DNA of 64,000 nucleotides, taken from the NCBI RefSeq assembly GCF_013694095.1, contig NZ_JACEFB010000010.1, forward strand, positions 1 through 64,000, written 5' to 3'. Positions 9,697 to 51,468 of this stretch are shown piece after piece. Both the position numbers and the translations under genes were made by a program. The notes under the pieces were generated by a model that saw only the letters and a list, made by a program, of their open reading frames with translations, had not been told where the DNA came from and searched no databases. Every line of letters starts with the position of its first letter. Positions within the stretch are counted from its first letter, which is position 1. Source of the stretch: Thermogemmata fonticola. Its GTDB lineage: Bacteria > Planctomycetota > Planctomycetia > Gemmatales > Gemmataceae.

Positions 9697-9800
9697 GGGT
9701 GTAGCCAGATTTTCTGGGGGTTCTCTGCCGGGCAGCTCTGCTAGTCTGGGGAAACACCTCGCGGGTTCAGCCCCCACCCCCAGAGAATCTAGTTACACCC
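9697..9800 (+). repeat. 104-bp palindrome-ended repeat, copy 1
   Basis: First of five copies in the window, all 104 bp and all in the same orientation. The ends are near-perfect inverted repeats of about 24 bp: GGGTGTAGCCAGATTTTCTG at the left and the complement of GGGTGTAACTAGATTCTCTG at the right. A 58-bp inner part is identical in all five copies; it includes the short palindrome CTGCCGGGCAG. No coding potential is shared. It looks like a MITE or a REP-type element. Copy 2 follows after 8 bp. Confidence 0.88.
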
Positions 9801-9808
9801 GAGGCGGA

Positions 9809-9912
9809 GGGTGCAACCAGATTTTCTGGGGGTTCTCTGCCGGGCAGCTCTGCTAGTCTGGGGAAACACCTCGCGGGTTCAGCCCCCACCCCCAGAGAAT
9901 CTAGTTACACCC
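9809..9912 (+). repeat. 104-bp palindrome-ended repeat, copy 2
   Basis: In tandem with copy 1, separated by 8 bp (GAGGCGGA). It differs from copy 1 only in the left arm (GGGTGCAACC against GGGTGTAGCC); core and right arm are identical. The pair stands between the RHS remnant and the small gene at 9355-9676. Confidence 0.88.
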
Positions 9913-22241: not shown

Positions 22242-23348
22242 TCAGGCGGCCTGTTTGGCCTCACCTGTGTTGCTACGGCTTTTGCCTTTGCGAGTATTCA
22301 GGGCCGTCCAGCCTTGCGGCGGCATCGCCTTAGCGAGTTTCAACGCTCCCACGGCACCAGCGTAAGTGGCATCGGTCACTCGTGTCACTTTGGCCCCGCC
22401 ATATTCTGTCAGAGCCTGCTCGATAACACGATCCAAGCCCTTCAATTGGCTGCCGCCTCCGCCTAGAATAATGTTTTGTCGCAACTTTTCTTGAAACTCT
22501 GGATCGAAGCGTGCGATCAGCTTGCGTATGGCTTCCACAATCGGACCGACCAGCACCTGACAAGCCGCCTTGAGAGGTTCTGTCACGTCGTGAGGTGTGG
22601 GTTTGCCATCGACAGGGAGATTCACGAGCGCTTGCTCGCCTACTGCGTTGACGAAACCAAATTTCTCCTTAATCTCCCGCACCATATTCCGGGAAATCTG
22701 CACACGGGGATACTTAGCCTTCAGGCGCTTTTCAAACTCTTCATCAACGGCATCTCCTCCCAAGCCGATGGTGATTTGCTCCTCGTCCGCTGGATAAACG
22801 CCATAGATCGGGCAGATATCGATTGTGCCAGCTCCGATGTCCACGACAAGGGCATCGGTGAGGCGGTTCATCCCGTAGGCGATCGAGAACGGCTCCGACA
22901 CCACTGCCACAGCATCGAAGACATGACCTGCCGCTTCCAGGATGAACTGCTTGTTTTTCACGCTGGCCCGTGCGGGAACTCCGATGACGCCATAAATCGG
23001 TCGGGCAGTATCTTGGGGTTCAGGATGGACGAGATGAACGGCGTACTCGATGATGAGCCGAGTCGCCAAGGCGTACTTCTCCATTTGCTTCTCACTCAGT
23101 CCACAGGTTGCAGGATCGCCATATTTCAGCATTCCTTTCTCGAAAGGCCGAATGATATCCAAGGCGAGTCGGTGCTCTGTCAAGTCCTGCCCGAAAACCA
23201 CATCCCGGCCTAGCATCGTGCGGGCGATGTGATCTTTCGGCCATCCCACTGCCGTCGGGATGACATCCCGATAACCAGCCGAACTGGCCACTGAAGTCTT
23301 GAACGTTCCTAAATCCATGCCGATATAAAGAGGATGACTTTCCGGCAT
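22242..23348 (-). CDS. MamK-family actin-like filament protein
   Basis: A 368-aa actin-fold protein. Phosphate loop 1 is YIGMDLGTFKTSVAS at residues 8-22. It has GWPKDHIARTMLGR, then VIGVPARASVKNKQFI, VVSEPFSIAYG, phosphate loop 2 VVDIGAGTIDICPIYG, DVTEPLKAACQVLVGPIVEA, and the adenosine motif NIILGGGGSQLKGL. It ends GALKLAKAMPPQGW. These blocks follow MamK, the actin that aligns magnetosomes, much more closely than MreB or DnaK. AGGAGG precedes the ATG. No other mam genes are visible, so a magnetosome role is unlikely; a cytoskeletal or membrane-organising role is inferred. Its C-terminus adds a basic tail (RKGKSRSNTGEAKQAA). The membrane protein at 23510-24556 is upstream on the same strand. 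Confidence 0.85.
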   Translation of the reverse strand: MPESHPLYIGMDLGTFKTSVASSAGYRDVIPTAVGWPKDHIARTMLGRDVVFGQDLTEHRLALDIIRPFEKGMLKYGDPATCGLSEKQMEKYALATRLIIEYAVHLVHPEPQDTARPIYGVIGVPARASVKNKQFILEAAGHVFDAVAVVSEPFSIAYGMNRLTDALVVDIGAGTIDICPIYGVYPADEEQITIGLGGDAVDEEFEKRLKAKYPRVQISRNMVREIKEKFGFVNAVGEQALVNLPVDGKPTPHDVTEPLKAACQVLVGPIVEAIRKLIARFDPEFQEKLRQNIILGGGGSQLKGLDRVIEQALTEYGGAKVTRVTDATYAGAVGALKLAKAMPPQGWTALNTRKGKSRSNTGEAKQAA

Positions 23349-24903: not shown

Positions 24904-26196
24904 TTACCGTCCGCGATTCCAGTAGATGCGGGCGTTACCGGTTTGCCGACCCACCGCGATGATGTCGATACGGCCATCGCGGTTGAGATCCGCAGCGCAA
25001 AGGTCTTCCACGGCGACACCCCCATTTTCCAGCATATATCGTTCCCATTTCATACCACTGTTGTCGGTGCTGCGATACAGCCGTATTCCCCGCCGGAGGG
25101 TGTGCCGGTCGCCCGCTTGGGGATTGGGATCATCACGCACCCCTACGATCAGTTCCTCCAGACCGTCCTGATCCAAGTCGGCGAACCAGACTGCATGACC
25201 CCACCGCAGCTCCTGATCAATGACATGGCGTTGCCAAAGATGCTGATCGGCCTTGGGTGGAAGATAGACGACCACTTCATGGCCGTGCCAGGGTTCAATC
25301 GTGGCAATGATGGGGATACCGATCCAGCCGCTCTTCACTTCGCTGGCTCCCCGGCTGGCTTGGGGACGCTCCTGGTAACCCGTACCGATCCGCCGGGTCC
25401 GCCATTGGTTCCCCACCCGCTCGATGACATGGACCCCTTCGTAACTGGTGACAAGGATGCCAGGAAACCGGAAGGGGGACTGGTCCCGATCTCGGAAGGC
25501 CGGCCAAAAGTTATGCGTGACATAGAGCTCTTCCGAGAGCACTTCGACTTTCCAGTTCTCTTTTTTCGTTGGTTCCTGTTGGGGAATGTGCAAGGCGACC
25601 ACGCGCACGGGCCGGCCATTCGTCCAGTTTCTTTGGGCCGTATTGTCACGTCCATGCAGGGGAACGTGGACAATCTCCGGTTTGCCATCCCCCGTGATGT
25701 CAAACGCCCGTACACGGTGCACAGTGGGTTCTTCACAAGGAAGCTCATACAACTGCCATTCCTCAGCCAGTGAGGGACCCCGGCGAAGCCAGAACAACTG
25801 CCCCGGCGTCGCAGTGTCGGTAGGCCGCCAGCCGGCTCCCAAGACCAGCTCCGGCAGGCGATCGCCATCGATATCCACCGCTGTGATGCAAACGTTATCG
25901 GGCCGGGTCTTGCCGCGGAGAATCATCCATTTCTTCCACGTGGGATTCTCGTACCAGACCACCTCGTGTTGGTCCACCACGACGATGTCGGTCTTACCAT
26001 CCCCGTTGATGTCCGTCGTCAATACCGCGTAACCGATTTTCAGCCGCGTGTCGAACTCTTCCATCTCGAAGCGGGGAAATCGGGCTGGCGATTCCTGAGA
26101 CCCCTCTGCAGAGCAAACCTTGCCTCTCAGCAGATCCACCCCACTTTGCAAACCCAACAACAATCCGCCACAACAGCACATAACGAGCATACGCAT
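24904..26196 (-). CDS. Secreted FG-GAP/VCBS repeat protein
   Basis: A 430-aa protein with an N-terminal signal (MRMLVMCCCGGLLLG) and at least four repeat units with Ca-binding-like loops: TDINGDGKTDIVVV, VDIDGDRLPELVLG, FDITGDGKPEIVHV, FADLDQDGLEELIVG and ADLNRDGRIDIIAVG. Such repeats build an integrin-type beta-propeller outside the cell. No enzyme domain is attached. GGAGAG lies 8 bp before the ATG. It is divergent from the MotA-like gene at 26465. Ligand unknown. Confidence 0.85.
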   Translation of the reverse strand: MRMLVMCCCGGLLLGLQSGVDLLRGKVCSAEGSQESPARFPRFEMEEFDTRLKIGYAVLTTDINGDGKTDIVVVDQHEVVWYENPTWKKWMILRGKTRPDNVCITAVDIDGDRLPELVLGAGWRPTDTATPGQLFWLRRGPSLAEEWQLYELPCEEPTVHRVRAFDITGDGKPEIVHVPLHGRDNTAQRNWTNGRPVRVVALHIPQQEPTKKENWKVEVLSEELYVTHNFWPAFRDRDQSPFRFPGILVTSYEGVHVIERVGNQWRTRRIGTGYQERPQASRGASEVKSGWIGIPIIATIEPWHGHEVVVYLPPKADQHLWQRHVIDQELRWGHAVWFADLDQDGLEELIVGVRDDPNPQAGDRHTLRRGIRLYRSTDNSGMKWERYMLENGGVAVEDLCAADLNRDGRIDIIAVGRQTGNARIYWNRGR

Positions 26197-26464: not shown

Positions 26465-27265
26465 ATGAAGTCAGGATTGTCCCATCGCCCGATTCGGGAA
26501 TGGTTACTTCTACTTCTGGCCATCGTCGTAGTTGGCGGTATTGTGGTCCCGCTGTGGGACATCTTCGGGGGACTGGAGAGCCGCGAAGAGTTGGCACGGA
26601 AGTGGACGCCGCAGCGTCTGACCCATTTGCTGCTCGGACCGGAGCAGGTGGTTTGTTATGTGTGTTTTGTTTGGGCCGGCTTGATTCTGCTGATGCGCTA
26701 TCGAGAGGTCTTGCGTCAGCGTACCGCTTTTCGGATGAACTTGCTTCCCACAGAAACGGGGGCACGGATCTTGCCGGAGGACGCCAGGCCCCTGTTGCGG
26801 AAATTGGACCAACTCACAGGCCGTCGGCCGTACATCTTGGCGAATCTGATCCGTCTCGGTTTGGGGAAATATGCTGTGGCGCAGTCAGCTCCCGATGTGG
26901 CCGAGGTGGTGCGCAACCAGGCAGACGTCGAGATGTCCCGCCTATCGGCAACGATGGCCACTGTGCACTATCTCGCTTGGGCCATTCCCGCCATTGGTTT
27001 TGTGGGAACTGTGCGGGGCTTAGGCGGCGCCTTCGGCGCGGAGGCCCCCACCCTGGAAGCCTTCACAGCTCAGGCCAAGGACCAATTGAAAATTGCTTTT
27101 GACTGCACGCTGATTGCTCTCGTGCTTAGCCTGGGTCTAATGTTCTTGCTGCACCTTGTACAACGTGCAGAAGAAACGTTGGTGGTCGATGCTCAGGAAT
27201 ACTGTCAGGAACATCTGCTGCTCCGCCTGTACGATCCCGCTGGCCATCCCGCTACTTGGAGTTGA
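26465..27265 (+). CDS. MotA/TolQ/ExbB-type proton-channel family protein
   Basis: A 266-aa membrane protein. The first span lies at about residues 13-33 (LLLLLAIVVVGGIVVPLW) and the second at about 61-80. Two more near the C-terminus frame the family core HYLAWAIPAIGFVGTVRGLG and CTLIALVLSLGLMFLLHL. The GFVGTVRGLGGAF motif matches the GLLGTVxG motif of TolQ/ExbB/MotA. AGGAGGTGA is 7 bp before the ATG. It is the first gene of a three-gene run with the Hsp70-like gene (95 bp later) and the ExbD-like/vWA gene. In that run it would be the channel half of an ion-driven complex (inferred). Confidence 0.82.
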   Translation: MKSGLSHRPIREWLLLLLAIVVVGGIVVPLWDIFGGLESREELARKWTPQRLTHLLLGPEQVVCYVCFVWAGLILLMRYREVLRQRTAFRMNLLPTETGARILPEDARPLLRKLDQLTGRRPYILANLIRLGLGKYAVAQSAPDVAEVVRNQADVEMSRLSATMATVHYLAWAIPAIGFVGTVRGLGGAFGAEAPTLEAFTAQAKDQLKIAFDCTLIALVLSLGLMFLLHLVQRAEETLVVDAQEYCQEHLLLRLYDPAGHPATWS

Positions 27266-27360
27266 GGGAGTAATCCGCGGGGCATTCCGCCGCTGACACA
27301 CCGGTCGCCCTTGGCAAAAAGTGCCTGAGGTATCCCGCCGCCGATGGTCGGAGAAGGACT

Positions 27361-28593
27361 ATGTTCTGGGGACGACGAGTCGCACGAGAGATAGACCCGA
27401 CCCGCACAATCGGTGTGGAACTCAATGCCAGTATCATCCGCTCTGCGTGTTGGGGTCCAGAAGGATTACGGCAAATCCCGCTCCAACCCCCGGCAGAGGA
27501 AATGCCATTGTGCGTGGCGTTACATCAACGTCATCTGCTTTATGGTCAGGCGGCGCAAGCGGTGGCCCGTACCATGCCCCATGCGATTTGTGACAACTTT
27601 CTACCCTCGTTGGGCCACAGCCAGCAGTGGCGTTTTGGGCGCCATTGCCTGACAGCGGAAAGCGCCTTGGAAACAATCCTGCTGCACCTCCGGCCCGTTT
27701 GGGAGGCTCAAGCGGCTCCCTTGGCTGTGGCGGTCCCTGCCTATCTTTCAGCCGGGCAAGTCCAAGGATTGGCCCGATTGTTCCGCCGGATGGACTGTAC
27801 ACTGCGTGCTGTCTTATTGGCTCCCCTCGGTGTAGCCGCTGCGTTTGCCCCTGCTTTGTATTCTCACCTTCCCTCTCCAACGCAAAACACGTCCAAGACC
27901 TTAGTCCAAACTAACCAACCCGCACGAGACCTGCGGCAGGCACCGATCACCGTTGGGATTGTTGACGTGGATGCCTTTGCTCTCTCGGCAGCCGTGGTAG
28001 GCCTTACCCCGGATACAGCCCGTCTGCTGGCATTTTCCGCCTGGCCTCGCTTGGGTTTGTCGGTCTGGTACAACCGCGTGCTCGACGCTGTAGCCGATCA
28101 CTGTATTCGCTTATGTCGCCGGGACCCACGGGACTGGCCTGAAGCAGAACAAGGGCTTTTCGAGCAACTCCCTTACGCCTTGGAGCAATGCTACGCCGGT
28201 CAGACCATTCGCTGGCTGGTGCGAACCGACGAATGGTATCAGGAGTTGCACATGGTCCCAGAAGAGCTGGAAGGATACTGTGCCAGCCTAGCCCAAACGG
28301 CGGAGCAAGTCATTCGCCAGCTAACGCAAGATGCCACTAACTCAGGCCCTTTACGAGCATTGTGGATGACCTCACGCGCCTCACGCTTGCCAGGTCTAAA
28401 TCGTCAACTGCAATGGAACAAATCACCCGGCACCCGTCTGGAAATCCTCTCCCCTTCGGCAATTGCCCAGGCTGCTGCTACTCTCACTGCTCATTGGCCA
28501 CCTACAGAACAACCGATGTACCTCGATGGTACCATCTCATTGTCGGTCCCTGGTCGTCTCGCTGTGGCTGGACATAACATTCCGGCCACCTGA
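27361..28593 (+). CDS. Divergent Hsp70/actin-fold protein between MotA-like and vWA genes
   Basis: A 410-aa protein starting MFWGRRVAREIDPTRTIGVE. A degenerate phosphate loop 1 (TIGVELNASIIRSACW) is followed by an Hsp70-like second strand set, LAVAVPAYLSAGQVQGLARL and CTLRAVLLAPLGVAAAFA. This corresponds to the DnaK segment 'VPAYFNDxQR..D' to 'INEPTAAALA'. The expected phosphate loop 2 region reads ITVGIVDVDAFALSAAVVGL, lacking the usual DxGGGT glycines, so ATPase activity is doubtful. GGAGAAGG lies 6 bp before the ATG. No substrate-binding domain follows. The family call is from pattern only. Confidence 0.6.
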   Translation: MFWGRRVAREIDPTRTIGVELNASIIRSACWGPEGLRQIPLQPPAEEMPLCVALHQRHLLYGQAAQAVARTMPHAICDNFLPSLGHSQQWRFGRHCLTAESALETILLHLRPVWEAQAAPLAVAVPAYLSAGQVQGLARLFRRMDCTLRAVLLAPLGVAAAFAPALYSHLPSPTQNTSKTLVQTNQPARDLRQAPITVGIVDVDAFALSAAVVGLTPDTARLLAFSAWPRLGLSVWYNRVLDAVADHCIRLCRRDPRDWPEAEQGLFEQLPYALEQCYAGQTIRWLVRTDEWYQELHMVPEELEGYCASLAQTAEQVIRQLTQDATNSGPLRALWMTSRASRLPGLNRQLQWNKSPGTRLEILSPSAIAQAAATLTAHWPPTEQPMYLDGTISLSVPGRLAVAGHNIPAT

Positions 28594-28700
28594 CAAATCC
28601 CAACGCCTCGGTTTAGGAAACCTAGCGGTACCCGTAGGCAGTGTTTGATTCATACAAACAGCCAAGAAATGGATTCGAGCAGTTATCAGAGGACTACATC

Positions 28701-30146
28701 ATGCGCATCCGACACAAAGTTCCCACGCTGGTCAGCATGTGGATGCTGGACGTCTTCTGCTGTGCCTTGGGTTGCGTCACCTTGTTGTTTCTGATCAACA
28801 GTCGCATGGCTAGCGACGCGGCTGACACTAACCGCAATGCATTGACGGAACTGGCAAAACTCAAACAGCGCTACTCCGAACTGGTAACCAACTATGAAAG
28901 CGAAAAAGCCGCTTGGGAGGAGAATCGCCGTCGCCTGTTTCAAGAGTTAGATTCCCTCAGACAAGACAAGGAAGATCTTTCCCGCCATCTTGCCCTGTTG
29001 AAGAAAGAAGTCCAATCTCTTCAGGCTCAGCGGGATGCCGACCGCCTAGCTCTCGCCGATGCCGAAAAAAATCTGAGAACAACCCAGCAACAACTGACTA
29101 TCCTGCAAACCCAATCTCTCCGATCCGAAGAACTCCTCCGCAAAAAGCAGAAAGAGACCGACGACCTCCAGCAGCGCATTCAAACTTTGCAGACGACCCA
29201 GGATGATTTGCAGCGGCTGCTACGCGTCAAAGATGATGAAATGACTATGCTCTCGCGCCAGTTAGCCAACATGAAAAAGCAATTGCATGACTTAGAAGTT
29301 CTGCAGACTGCTTTGCGCCAAGAGCGTGACGCAGCCCGCACCGCAACCGAACAAGCTGTGAAAAAAGCGGAGATGGAACTGCAAGCGGCACAAACTCGCA
29401 TTCGCGATTTGACTCAGCGCTTGGAAGCGGCACAGACCACAATCATCGACCTTCAAGGCCAGAAGGCCCGCCTCGCCGACCGCTTCGACCAATTGCAAAA
29501 GAGCATGGAGAACCGCTTCGCCGGTATCGTCACCACGGGGCAACGCGTAGTCTTCATCGTGGACATTTCCGGGAGCATGGCCAAAAAAGACACTAACACC
29601 GTGGACCCGAATAAATGGCCCCTCGTCGTGGAAACGGTGGGGAAAGTGATGCGCAGCATCGTCGGCCTGAAAGAGTATCAGGTCATCATTTTTTCCAGCT
29701 CGGCCCGCTGGCTTTTCCACGACGAGGGCAACTGGCGAGCCTTCCGTGGAGAAGAGTCTGTCAAAGAGGTGATCGATGCTCTCCTGAAAACCCAACCCTA
29801 CGACGATACCAATCTCTATGCGGCCTTCGAATTGGCTTTCACATTACGCTCGAAAGGATTGGATACCATCTACCTGTTTTCCGATGGCTTGCCGACTTCC
29901 GGTCCCGGCCTCTCACCCGCCGACATCTCCCGACAGCCTCCGTTATCGGAATTAGAACGCAGTGACAAACTCAGCCGCCATCTGTTGTCCACCCTGCGCG
30001 ACCAATGGAATCGACCGGACGCCGCTCAGTCTAGAGTTCGCATTCATTCCGTCGGCTTCTATTTTGAAAGCCCCGAATTGGGAGCCTTTCTCTGGACCCT
30101 CGCCCGCGACAATGACGGAAGTTTCGTAGGCATGAGTAAACCTTGA
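28701..30146 (+). CDS. ExbD-like anchor, coiled coil and von Willebrand A domain protein
   Basis: A 481-aa protein. An N-terminal span (MWMLDVFCCALGCVTLLFLI, about residues 13-32) resembles the 'PLxDVxF' anchor of ExbD/TolR. A heptad-rich coiled coil of about 220 residues follows (about 45-265). The vWA domain then has a complete MIDAS: VVFIVDISGSM (DxSxS), YDDTNLYAAF (Thr) and YLFSDGLPTSG (Asp). AGAGGA precedes the ATG at 28701; the longer frame has no Shine-Dalgarno site. It lies 107 bp after the Hsp70-like gene. The coiled coil would project the metal-binding vWA domain away from the membrane (inferred). Partner unknown. Confidence 0.8.
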   Translation: MRIRHKVPTLVSMWMLDVFCCALGCVTLLFLINSRMASDAADTNRNALTELAKLKQRYSELVTNYESEKAAWEENRRRLFQELDSLRQDKEDLSRHLALLKKEVQSLQAQRDADRLALADAEKNLRTTQQQLTILQTQSLRSEELLRKKQKETDDLQQRIQTLQTTQDDLQRLLRVKDDEMTMLSRQLANMKKQLHDLEVLQTALRQERDAARTATEQAVKKAEMELQAAQTRIRDLTQRLEAAQTTIIDLQGQKARLADRFDQLQKSMENRFAGIVTTGQRVVFIVDISGSMAKKDTNTVDPNKWPLVVETVGKVMRSIVGLKEYQVIIFSSSARWLFHDEGNWRAFRGEESVKEVIDALLKTQPYDDTNLYAAFELAFTLRSKGLDTIYLFSDGLPTSGPGLSPADISRQPPLSELERSDKLSRHLLSTLRDQWNRPDAAQSRVRIHSVGFYFESPELGAFLWTLARDNDGSFVGMSKP

Positions 30147-30508: not shown

Positions 30509-30612
30509 GGGTGCAACCAAATTCTCTGGGGGTTCCCTGCCGGGCAGCTCTGCTAGTCTGGGGAAACACCTCGCGGGTTCAGCCCCCACCCCCAGAGAAT
30601 CTAGTTACACCC
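30509..30612 (+). repeat. 104-bp palindrome-ended repeat, copy 3
   Basis: Between tRNA-Gln and tRNA-Pro. The left arm begins GGGTGCAACCAAATTCTCTG; the 58-bp core and the right arm equal those of copies 1 and 2. GGTGC occurs immediately left of it and one base to its right, possibly a short target duplication. Confidence 0.88.
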
Positions 30613-30915: not shown

Positions 30916-31019
30916 GGGTGCAACCAGATTTTCTGGGGGGTCCCTGCCGGGCAGCTCTGCTAGTCTGGGGAAACACCTCGCGGGTTCAGCCCCCACCCCC
31001 AAAGAATCTAGTTACACCC
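30916..31019 (+). repeat. 104-bp palindrome-ended repeat, copy 4
   Basis: Downstream of tRNA-Pro. The left arm has one altered base (GGGGGG for GGGGGT) and the right arm has AAAGAATC for AGAGAATC. The 58-bp core is unchanged. Confidence 0.88.
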
Positions 31020-51364: not shown

Positions 51365-51468
51365 GGGTGCAACCAAATTCTCTGGGAGTTCCCTGCCGGG
51401 CAGCTCTGCTAGTCTGGGGAAACACCTCGCGGGTTCAGCCCCCACCCCCAGAAAATCTGGTTACACCC
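51365..51468 (+). repeat. 104-bp palindrome-ended repeat, copy 5
   Basis: The most diverged copy in its arms: left GGGAGT for GGGGGT, right GAAAATCTGGTTACACCC. Even so, the 58-bp core is identical to that of the other four. TTGCAGA lies directly to its left and again 2 bp to its right, which may mark the insertion site. Confidence 0.87.

Follow-up and report, generated by a model that had tools for sequence, protein, structure and literature searches.

In a 64,000-nucleotide window of the Thermogemmata fonticola genome (Planctomycetota; Gemmatales; RefSeq assembly GCF_013694095.1, contig NZ_JACEFB010000010.1, positions 1 to 64,000), three adjacent genes on one strand encode a TolQ/ExbB/MotA-family channel protein (P0001), a protein with the fold of the Hsp70 nucleotide-binding domain (P0002) and a protein composed of a transmembrane helix, a long coiled coil and a von Willebrand factor A (vWA) domain (P0003). 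We found that this trio is near-universal and co-inherited in Gemmatales, with an all-or-none presence, and we think it probable that the three products work as one inner-membrane force transducer of the 5:2 type, driven by the proton motive force (PMF) and joined by a cytoplasmic pseudo-Hsp70 regulator. A preliminary description of the window, made from the sequence alone, had placed three same-strand genes here, and the open reading frames confirm this (Table 1).

To judge the linkage, we used two samples: 40 Gemmatales loci reached through the vWA gene, and the best 80 loci from a separate scan reached through the channel gene, the latter almost entirely Planctomycetota judging by title and including the named genera Gemmata, Limnoglobus, Fimbriiglobus and Zavarzinella. 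The three genes lie side by side in 35 of the 40 loci of the first sample, most of the others stopping at a contig end, and all three are present in 66 of the 80 loci of the second, invariably (66 of 66) on one strand, with the channel gene first, the Hsp70-like gene next and the vWA gene last. These counts bear out the conserved linkage on which the preliminary description had made its proposal depend. Clustering of the neighbours in 59 long loci showed the members of the trio in 59, 59 and 57 of them, well ahead of any unrelated neighbour. The vWA protein was found in 93 of 102 Gemmatales genomes, and in 67 of the 71 of good quality. Three well-sequenced genomes without it (G059, G069 and G071) also have no family-level match to the channel or the Hsp70-like protein; two others (G099 and G021) carry the vWA gene apart from the other two, yet keep all three, and in another two (G030 and G002) the contig stops before the vWA gene. 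Pairwise distances are correlated between the three proteins (Mantel 0.73-0.85, 0/300 permutations), with mean pairwise identities over the 66 loci of 54% for the channel, 33% for the Hsp70-like protein and 38% for the vWA protein. Because the trio is conserved across dozens of genera, including in Limnoglobus roseus and Zavarzinella formosa, it is not a chance set. The window, like most loci, has a single vWA gene; one locus (L074) has two.

P0001 is matched by PF01618 (MotA_ExbB) at 31.8 bits against a cut-off of 22.9, and its AlphaFold2 model (predicted local distance difference test, pLDDT, 85) ranks nearest to TolQ (Z 14.5), followed by ExbB (12.8), ZorA (11.2) and MotA/PomA (about 9), in agreement with the earlier TolQ/ExbB/MotA-type call. 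The fold is a TolQ-like core with one extra N-terminal transmembrane helix. Neither P0001 nor its profile matched any PDB sequence, so that the placement comes from Pfam and fold comparison only. Two threonines, T182 and T215, are present in 81 of 81 rows each, and we take them to be the counterparts of TolQ Thr145 and Thr178. There are six PF01618 matches in the whole genome, and its four ExbD matches lie on contigs C1 and C3, each beside other channel genes; since no ExbD gene accompanies P0001, P0003 is its natural partner. No TolA/TonB-like gene adjoins the trio.

The reading frame of P0003 stays open up to a GTG at 28641, and the ATG at 28701 is the likely start judging from the homologues, which begin at MRxRHK. 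Asp37 and Gly44 of its transmembrane helix are both invariant (66 of 66 rows). The coiled coil that follows has a sharp 3.5-residue period, as strong in 0 of 500 shuffles, contains no proline and would measure about 35 nm if it were one continuous helix; among homologues the distance from the helix Asp to the first Asp of the metal ion-dependent adhesion site (MIDAS) varies from 180 to 375 residues. The C-terminal domain is matched by VWA_2 (34.6 bits) and has an intact MIDAS (D308-x-S310-x-S312, T390 and D415), whose residues are invariant in 63 of 63 readable rows, and the terminal GAFLWxLARxNDGSFVGMSxP is conserved through the final residue. The ExbD/TolR-like span, coil of about 220 residues and intact vWA domain proposed before are therefore all present, the coil at 237 residues, and the Asp that the span was expected to keep in homologues is kept. 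A lipoprotein reading of the CCALGC stretch was rejected, as there is no lipobox fit and Cys45 is not conserved, and the hits that P0003 gave to SMC, JetC, LmuB and models of that kind were dismissed as coiled-coil noise. We also rejected membership in the MoxR-vWA conflict systems, since no MoxR, VMAP or STAND gene is found here and the papers on those systems contain no MotA/TolQ.

P0002 alone gave no match in Pfam, but its family profile finds DnaK among PDB sequences at 2e-14, and its AlphaFold2 model (pLDDT 90.8) resembles Hsp70 nucleotide-binding domains (Foldseek 4.7e-21; Z 35 against that of DnaK). It ends after this domain, and a motif check with column counts found the phosphate-2 GGG and adenosine-site GG motifs lost across the family, which upholds the ‘degenerate Hsp70/actin fold’ of the preliminary description. 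Although the fold is shared with DnaK and Ssz1-like proteins (Z 34-35), the P0002 family differs from them in having no substrate-binding domain, in the loss of both nucleotide motifs, in a conserved RRDPR motif and, for some members, in fusion to an FHA domain. This C-terminal FHA domain, a phosphopeptide-binding module, is found on 5 of 32 Hsp70-like homologues in Gemmatales; the window copy has none, and no kinase or phosphatase gene adjoins it. Hsp70-only proteins without a peptide-binding domain are also components of GTPase-centred conflict systems (PMC7159879), a likeness that does not extend to a MotA/TolQ channel, as these terms are absent from that paper.

Table 1. Positions of the three genes and of their main features in the window
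Feature	Position	Strand	Basis
P0001, TolQ/ExbB/MotA-family channel protein, 266 aa	26465-27265	+	PF01618, AlphaFold2 fold
Thr182, P0001 predicted ion path	27008-27010	+	Invariant column
Thr215, P0001 predicted ion path	27107-27109	+	Invariant column
P0002, Hsp70 nucleotide-binding-domain-fold protein, 410 aa	27361-28593	+	Family profile, AlphaFold2 fold
P0003, transmembrane helix-coiled coil-vWA protein, ~481 aa	28701-30146 (likely start)	+	Homologue start, VWA_2
P0003 transpore-type transmembrane helix, residues 34-52	28740-28796	+	Hydropathy 2.27
P0003 Asp37 codon, motif LDVFCCALG	28749-28751	+	Invariant column
P0003 coiled coil, 237 residues	28818-29528	+	3.5-residue periodicity
P0003 vWA domain	29547-30143	+	VWA_2; complete MIDAS
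P0003 MIDAS DISGS	29562-29576	+	Thr390 and Asp415 complete the MIDAS

Part of this arrangement has been described. Mol Biol Evol 2025 msaf138 (PMC12204202, Fig. 4c,d) reports ‘TPH-vWA’ partners of TolQ-like genes, of unknown function, in which a vWA gene carries a TolR/ExbD-like, Asp-bearing transpore helix and tolR/exbD is missing; they occur mostly in Proteobacteria and Verrucomicrobia, usually as pairs of different vWA genes, and the combination of Asp helix and TolQ-like protein was modelled there as a 5:2 complex. The Gemmatales trio likewise has a TolQ-like gene adjoining or near a helix-vWA gene with no tolR/exbD beside it, and it has the helix Asp (66/66) and the conserved channel Thr ring (81/81). 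Judged by these published features rather than by the founder (Idiomarina) sequence, it fits the definition except for the vWA pair: a single vWA gene is found here, whereas a heterologous pair is predominant, though not universal, there. In addition, the trio has a coiled coil of great length and, between channel and vWA, a gene for an Hsp70-fold protein. The main text of PMC12204202 makes no mention of an Hsp70 gene and does not use the word ‘coiled’, and a literature search for the exact three-gene combination found nothing. The preliminary claim of an undescribed machine thus fails for the pair of TolQ-like and helix-vWA proteins and holds for the Hsp70-fold partner and the long coil; what is new is a degenerate Hsp70-fold partner together with a very long coiled coil, as a Gemmatales-wide form. 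Compared with TolQ-TolR and ExbB-ExbD, the channel fold and the Asp/Thr ion-path residues are alike, but P0001 has its extra N-terminal helix and P0003 ends in coil and vWA where TolR/ExbD have their small periplasmic domain.

Beyond the order, the channel family score falls from E <1e-86 for full-length Gemmatales members to 1e-50 or weaker. In the same class, a locus from another family outside the order (L080) encodes an Hsp70-like protein with FHA, a channel and a transmembrane helix-coil-vWA protein, with genes for FHA-trypsin and FHA-FHA proteins ahead of them. A second (L078) has the same type of layout with a DUF2135-like end in place of vWA and a Ser/Thr kinase gene in addition, and a third (L077) combines a channel and two helix proteins with an Hsp70 of ordinary appearance. 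Together with the FHA domain on 5 of 32 homologues, these gene sets indicate a recurring Hsp70 partner and a recurring connection to Ser/Thr phosphorylation. In their own right, the compact clusters of L078 (4141-9321) and L080 (636-6630), with FHA-FHA, FHA-transmembrane-trypsin, Hsp70-FHA, TolQ-like channel and helix-vWA or helix-DUF2135-like genes, apparently represent an undescribed envelope signalling or motor cluster. A channel gene with a helix protein whose end resembles DUF2135-like domains by eye, with no Hsp70, was seen in SAR324 (L176) and on a Rhizobium plasmid, the latter beside a PP2C-like gene. A plasmid search with the L080 vWA protein gave no match, and one with P0001 yielded no more than weak channel relatives. 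In other orders the Hsp70 profile found matches at 1e-20 to 1e-35; most of these proteins are probably ordinary Hsp70s, and we left them out of the counts. The remaining channel relatives within the class (L079, L081-L096) mostly accompany helix-protein pairs of which one often has no Asp, and were set aside as a different branch. Among these, in L081, L082, L086 and L094 a planctomycete channel gene of about 470-600 aa precedes two different helix proteins, and in one of the two Ser (FPFLS) takes the position that Asp has in the other. A MotA/TolQ/ExbB-family gene was also seen within a type III-B (Cmr) CRISPR neighbourhood on the Anabaena plasmid pANACY.03 (L178, 4291-5691).

In the transducer that we favour, five copies of P0001 would by homology form a pentamer around two P0003 N-terminal helices, and Asp37 would shuttle ions past the Thr182/Thr215 ring, so turning or tilting the P0003 dimer. 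The coil is placed in the periplasm because a basic N-terminus (MRIRHK) precedes the helix; there it could pass the movement to the vWA domains, which might hold a partner such as peptidoglycan, the outer membrane or a secreted protein through the MIDAS metal. P0002, predicted to be soluble and to act from the cytoplasm, may sit at the channel base as a nucleotide-sensing or pseudo-ATPase subunit for assembly or regulation, and in relatives the FHA domain would couple the motor to Ser/Thr phosphorylation. Several points weigh against this proposal. Its 5:2 assembly and force steps are borrowed from homologous motors, ion flow is read from conserved residues, the periplasmic coil is deduced from the positive-inside N-terminus and homology, and the contact of P0002 with the channel is suggested by linkage alone. 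The Hsp70 motifs are degenerate, which may or may not mean a loss of ATP binding, and the two linkage counts were each sampled through one member of the trio, 66/66 through the channel gene and 35/40 through the vWA gene.

The main rival would work in the opposite direction, sensing instead of driving: an envelope ligand would be bound by the vWA domain, strain on the coil would alter ion leak or channel shape, and the Hsp70-like protein, with FHA in relatives, would signal to Ser/Thr phosphorylation. The FHA domains on 5 of 32 homologues point this way, as do the Hsp70-FHA, FHA-protease and FHA-FHA genes of L078 and L080, the kinase gene of L078 and the PP2C-like gene, read from sequence, beside the Rhizobium channel and helix genes. 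However, the window copy is without FHA and has no neighbouring kinase or phosphatase gene, and the full set of residues required for ion-driven movement is invariant, although a pure sensor has no obvious use for them; we consider this reading unlikely, while taking it seriously. A gliding-like device for surface motility or adhesion, its vWA tip cycled against an outer-membrane adhesin and comparable to Glt/CglB of Myxococcus, was proposed for related vWA transducers by the authors of PMC12204202, and both vWA domains and 5:2 motors are found in gliding systems. With no gliding genes beside the trio it seems to us rather improbable, and it would in any case be a sub-case of the force transducer.

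Least probable, with very little weight in our view, is a Zorya-like anti-phage system, in which a ZorAB-type motor would sense phage damage to the envelope and recruit the Hsp70-like protein as effector. The two share the 5:2 motor superfamily (ZorA Z 11.2) and a long extended element, and channel relatives in other orders match ZorA models weakly, while P0001 itself has no ZorA match in PADLOC at E 1 or in NCBIfam. In Zorya the long tail is part of ZorA and cytoplasmic, and ZorB binds peptidoglycan (PMC11890865), whereas here the coil belongs to the MotB/TolR-like partner and is periplasmic by inferred topology. The analogy drawn in the preliminary description, which noted the lack of the Zorya nuclease or helicase, is one of layout only and differs in detail at the tail. 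Neither ZorC/D, ZorE nor any other nuclease or helicase gene lies beside the trio, and its near-universal, constant and co-inherited presence in the order is unlike that of patchy defence genes. A defence role is therefore unlikely, given both this constancy and the missing effector genes.

Flagella, Tol-Pal, Ton uptake, gliding and Zorya all run on ion-driven 5:2 motors. That a set of genes is co-inherited and near-universal in an order of planctomycetes, bacteria whose envelopes are unusual, suggests a basic and still nameless envelope task. The set also illustrates how a MotB/TolR partner can be refashioned to carry a long rod with vWA at its tip and, in the proposed reading, how an Hsp70-fold protein has been turned into a motor partner. 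More tentatively, and with somewhat less than even confidence, we suggest a core Gemmatales rotary transducer whose ion motor drives a coiled-coil rod of about 35 nm with a metal-dependent binding domain at its end, with a dedicated pseudo-Hsp70 as cytoplasmic switch and, in relatives, phosphorylation coupling through FHA, which would make it the first 5:2 motor controlled by an Hsp70-fold subunit.

The trio is neighboured by an FG-GAP protein upstream and by tRNAs and an ABC transporter downstream. The former is a beta-propeller protein (AUDH_beta_propeller, PF22301) at 24904-26196 on the minus strand, divergent from the trio and present in 13 of the 40 order loci. Integrins also join FG-GAP propellers with vWA domains, and an integrin-like link at the trio is, by this analogy, only a lead. 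Near the Hsp70-fold gene, at 22242-23348 on the minus strand, lies a gene for an MreB/MamK-like bacterial actin homologue (PF06723, 58.7 bits). We also observed a 104-nt non-coding repeat at 30509-30612, 30916-31019, 9697-9800, 9809-9912 and 51365-51468; across the genome there are 29 near-full copies at 91-100% identity, of which some form tandem pairs. On the minus strand the predicted fold is a single long hairpin (-63.7 kcal/mol, z -6.7), and the repeat is possibly an element like a miniature inverted-repeat transposable element (MITE) or a structured RNA.

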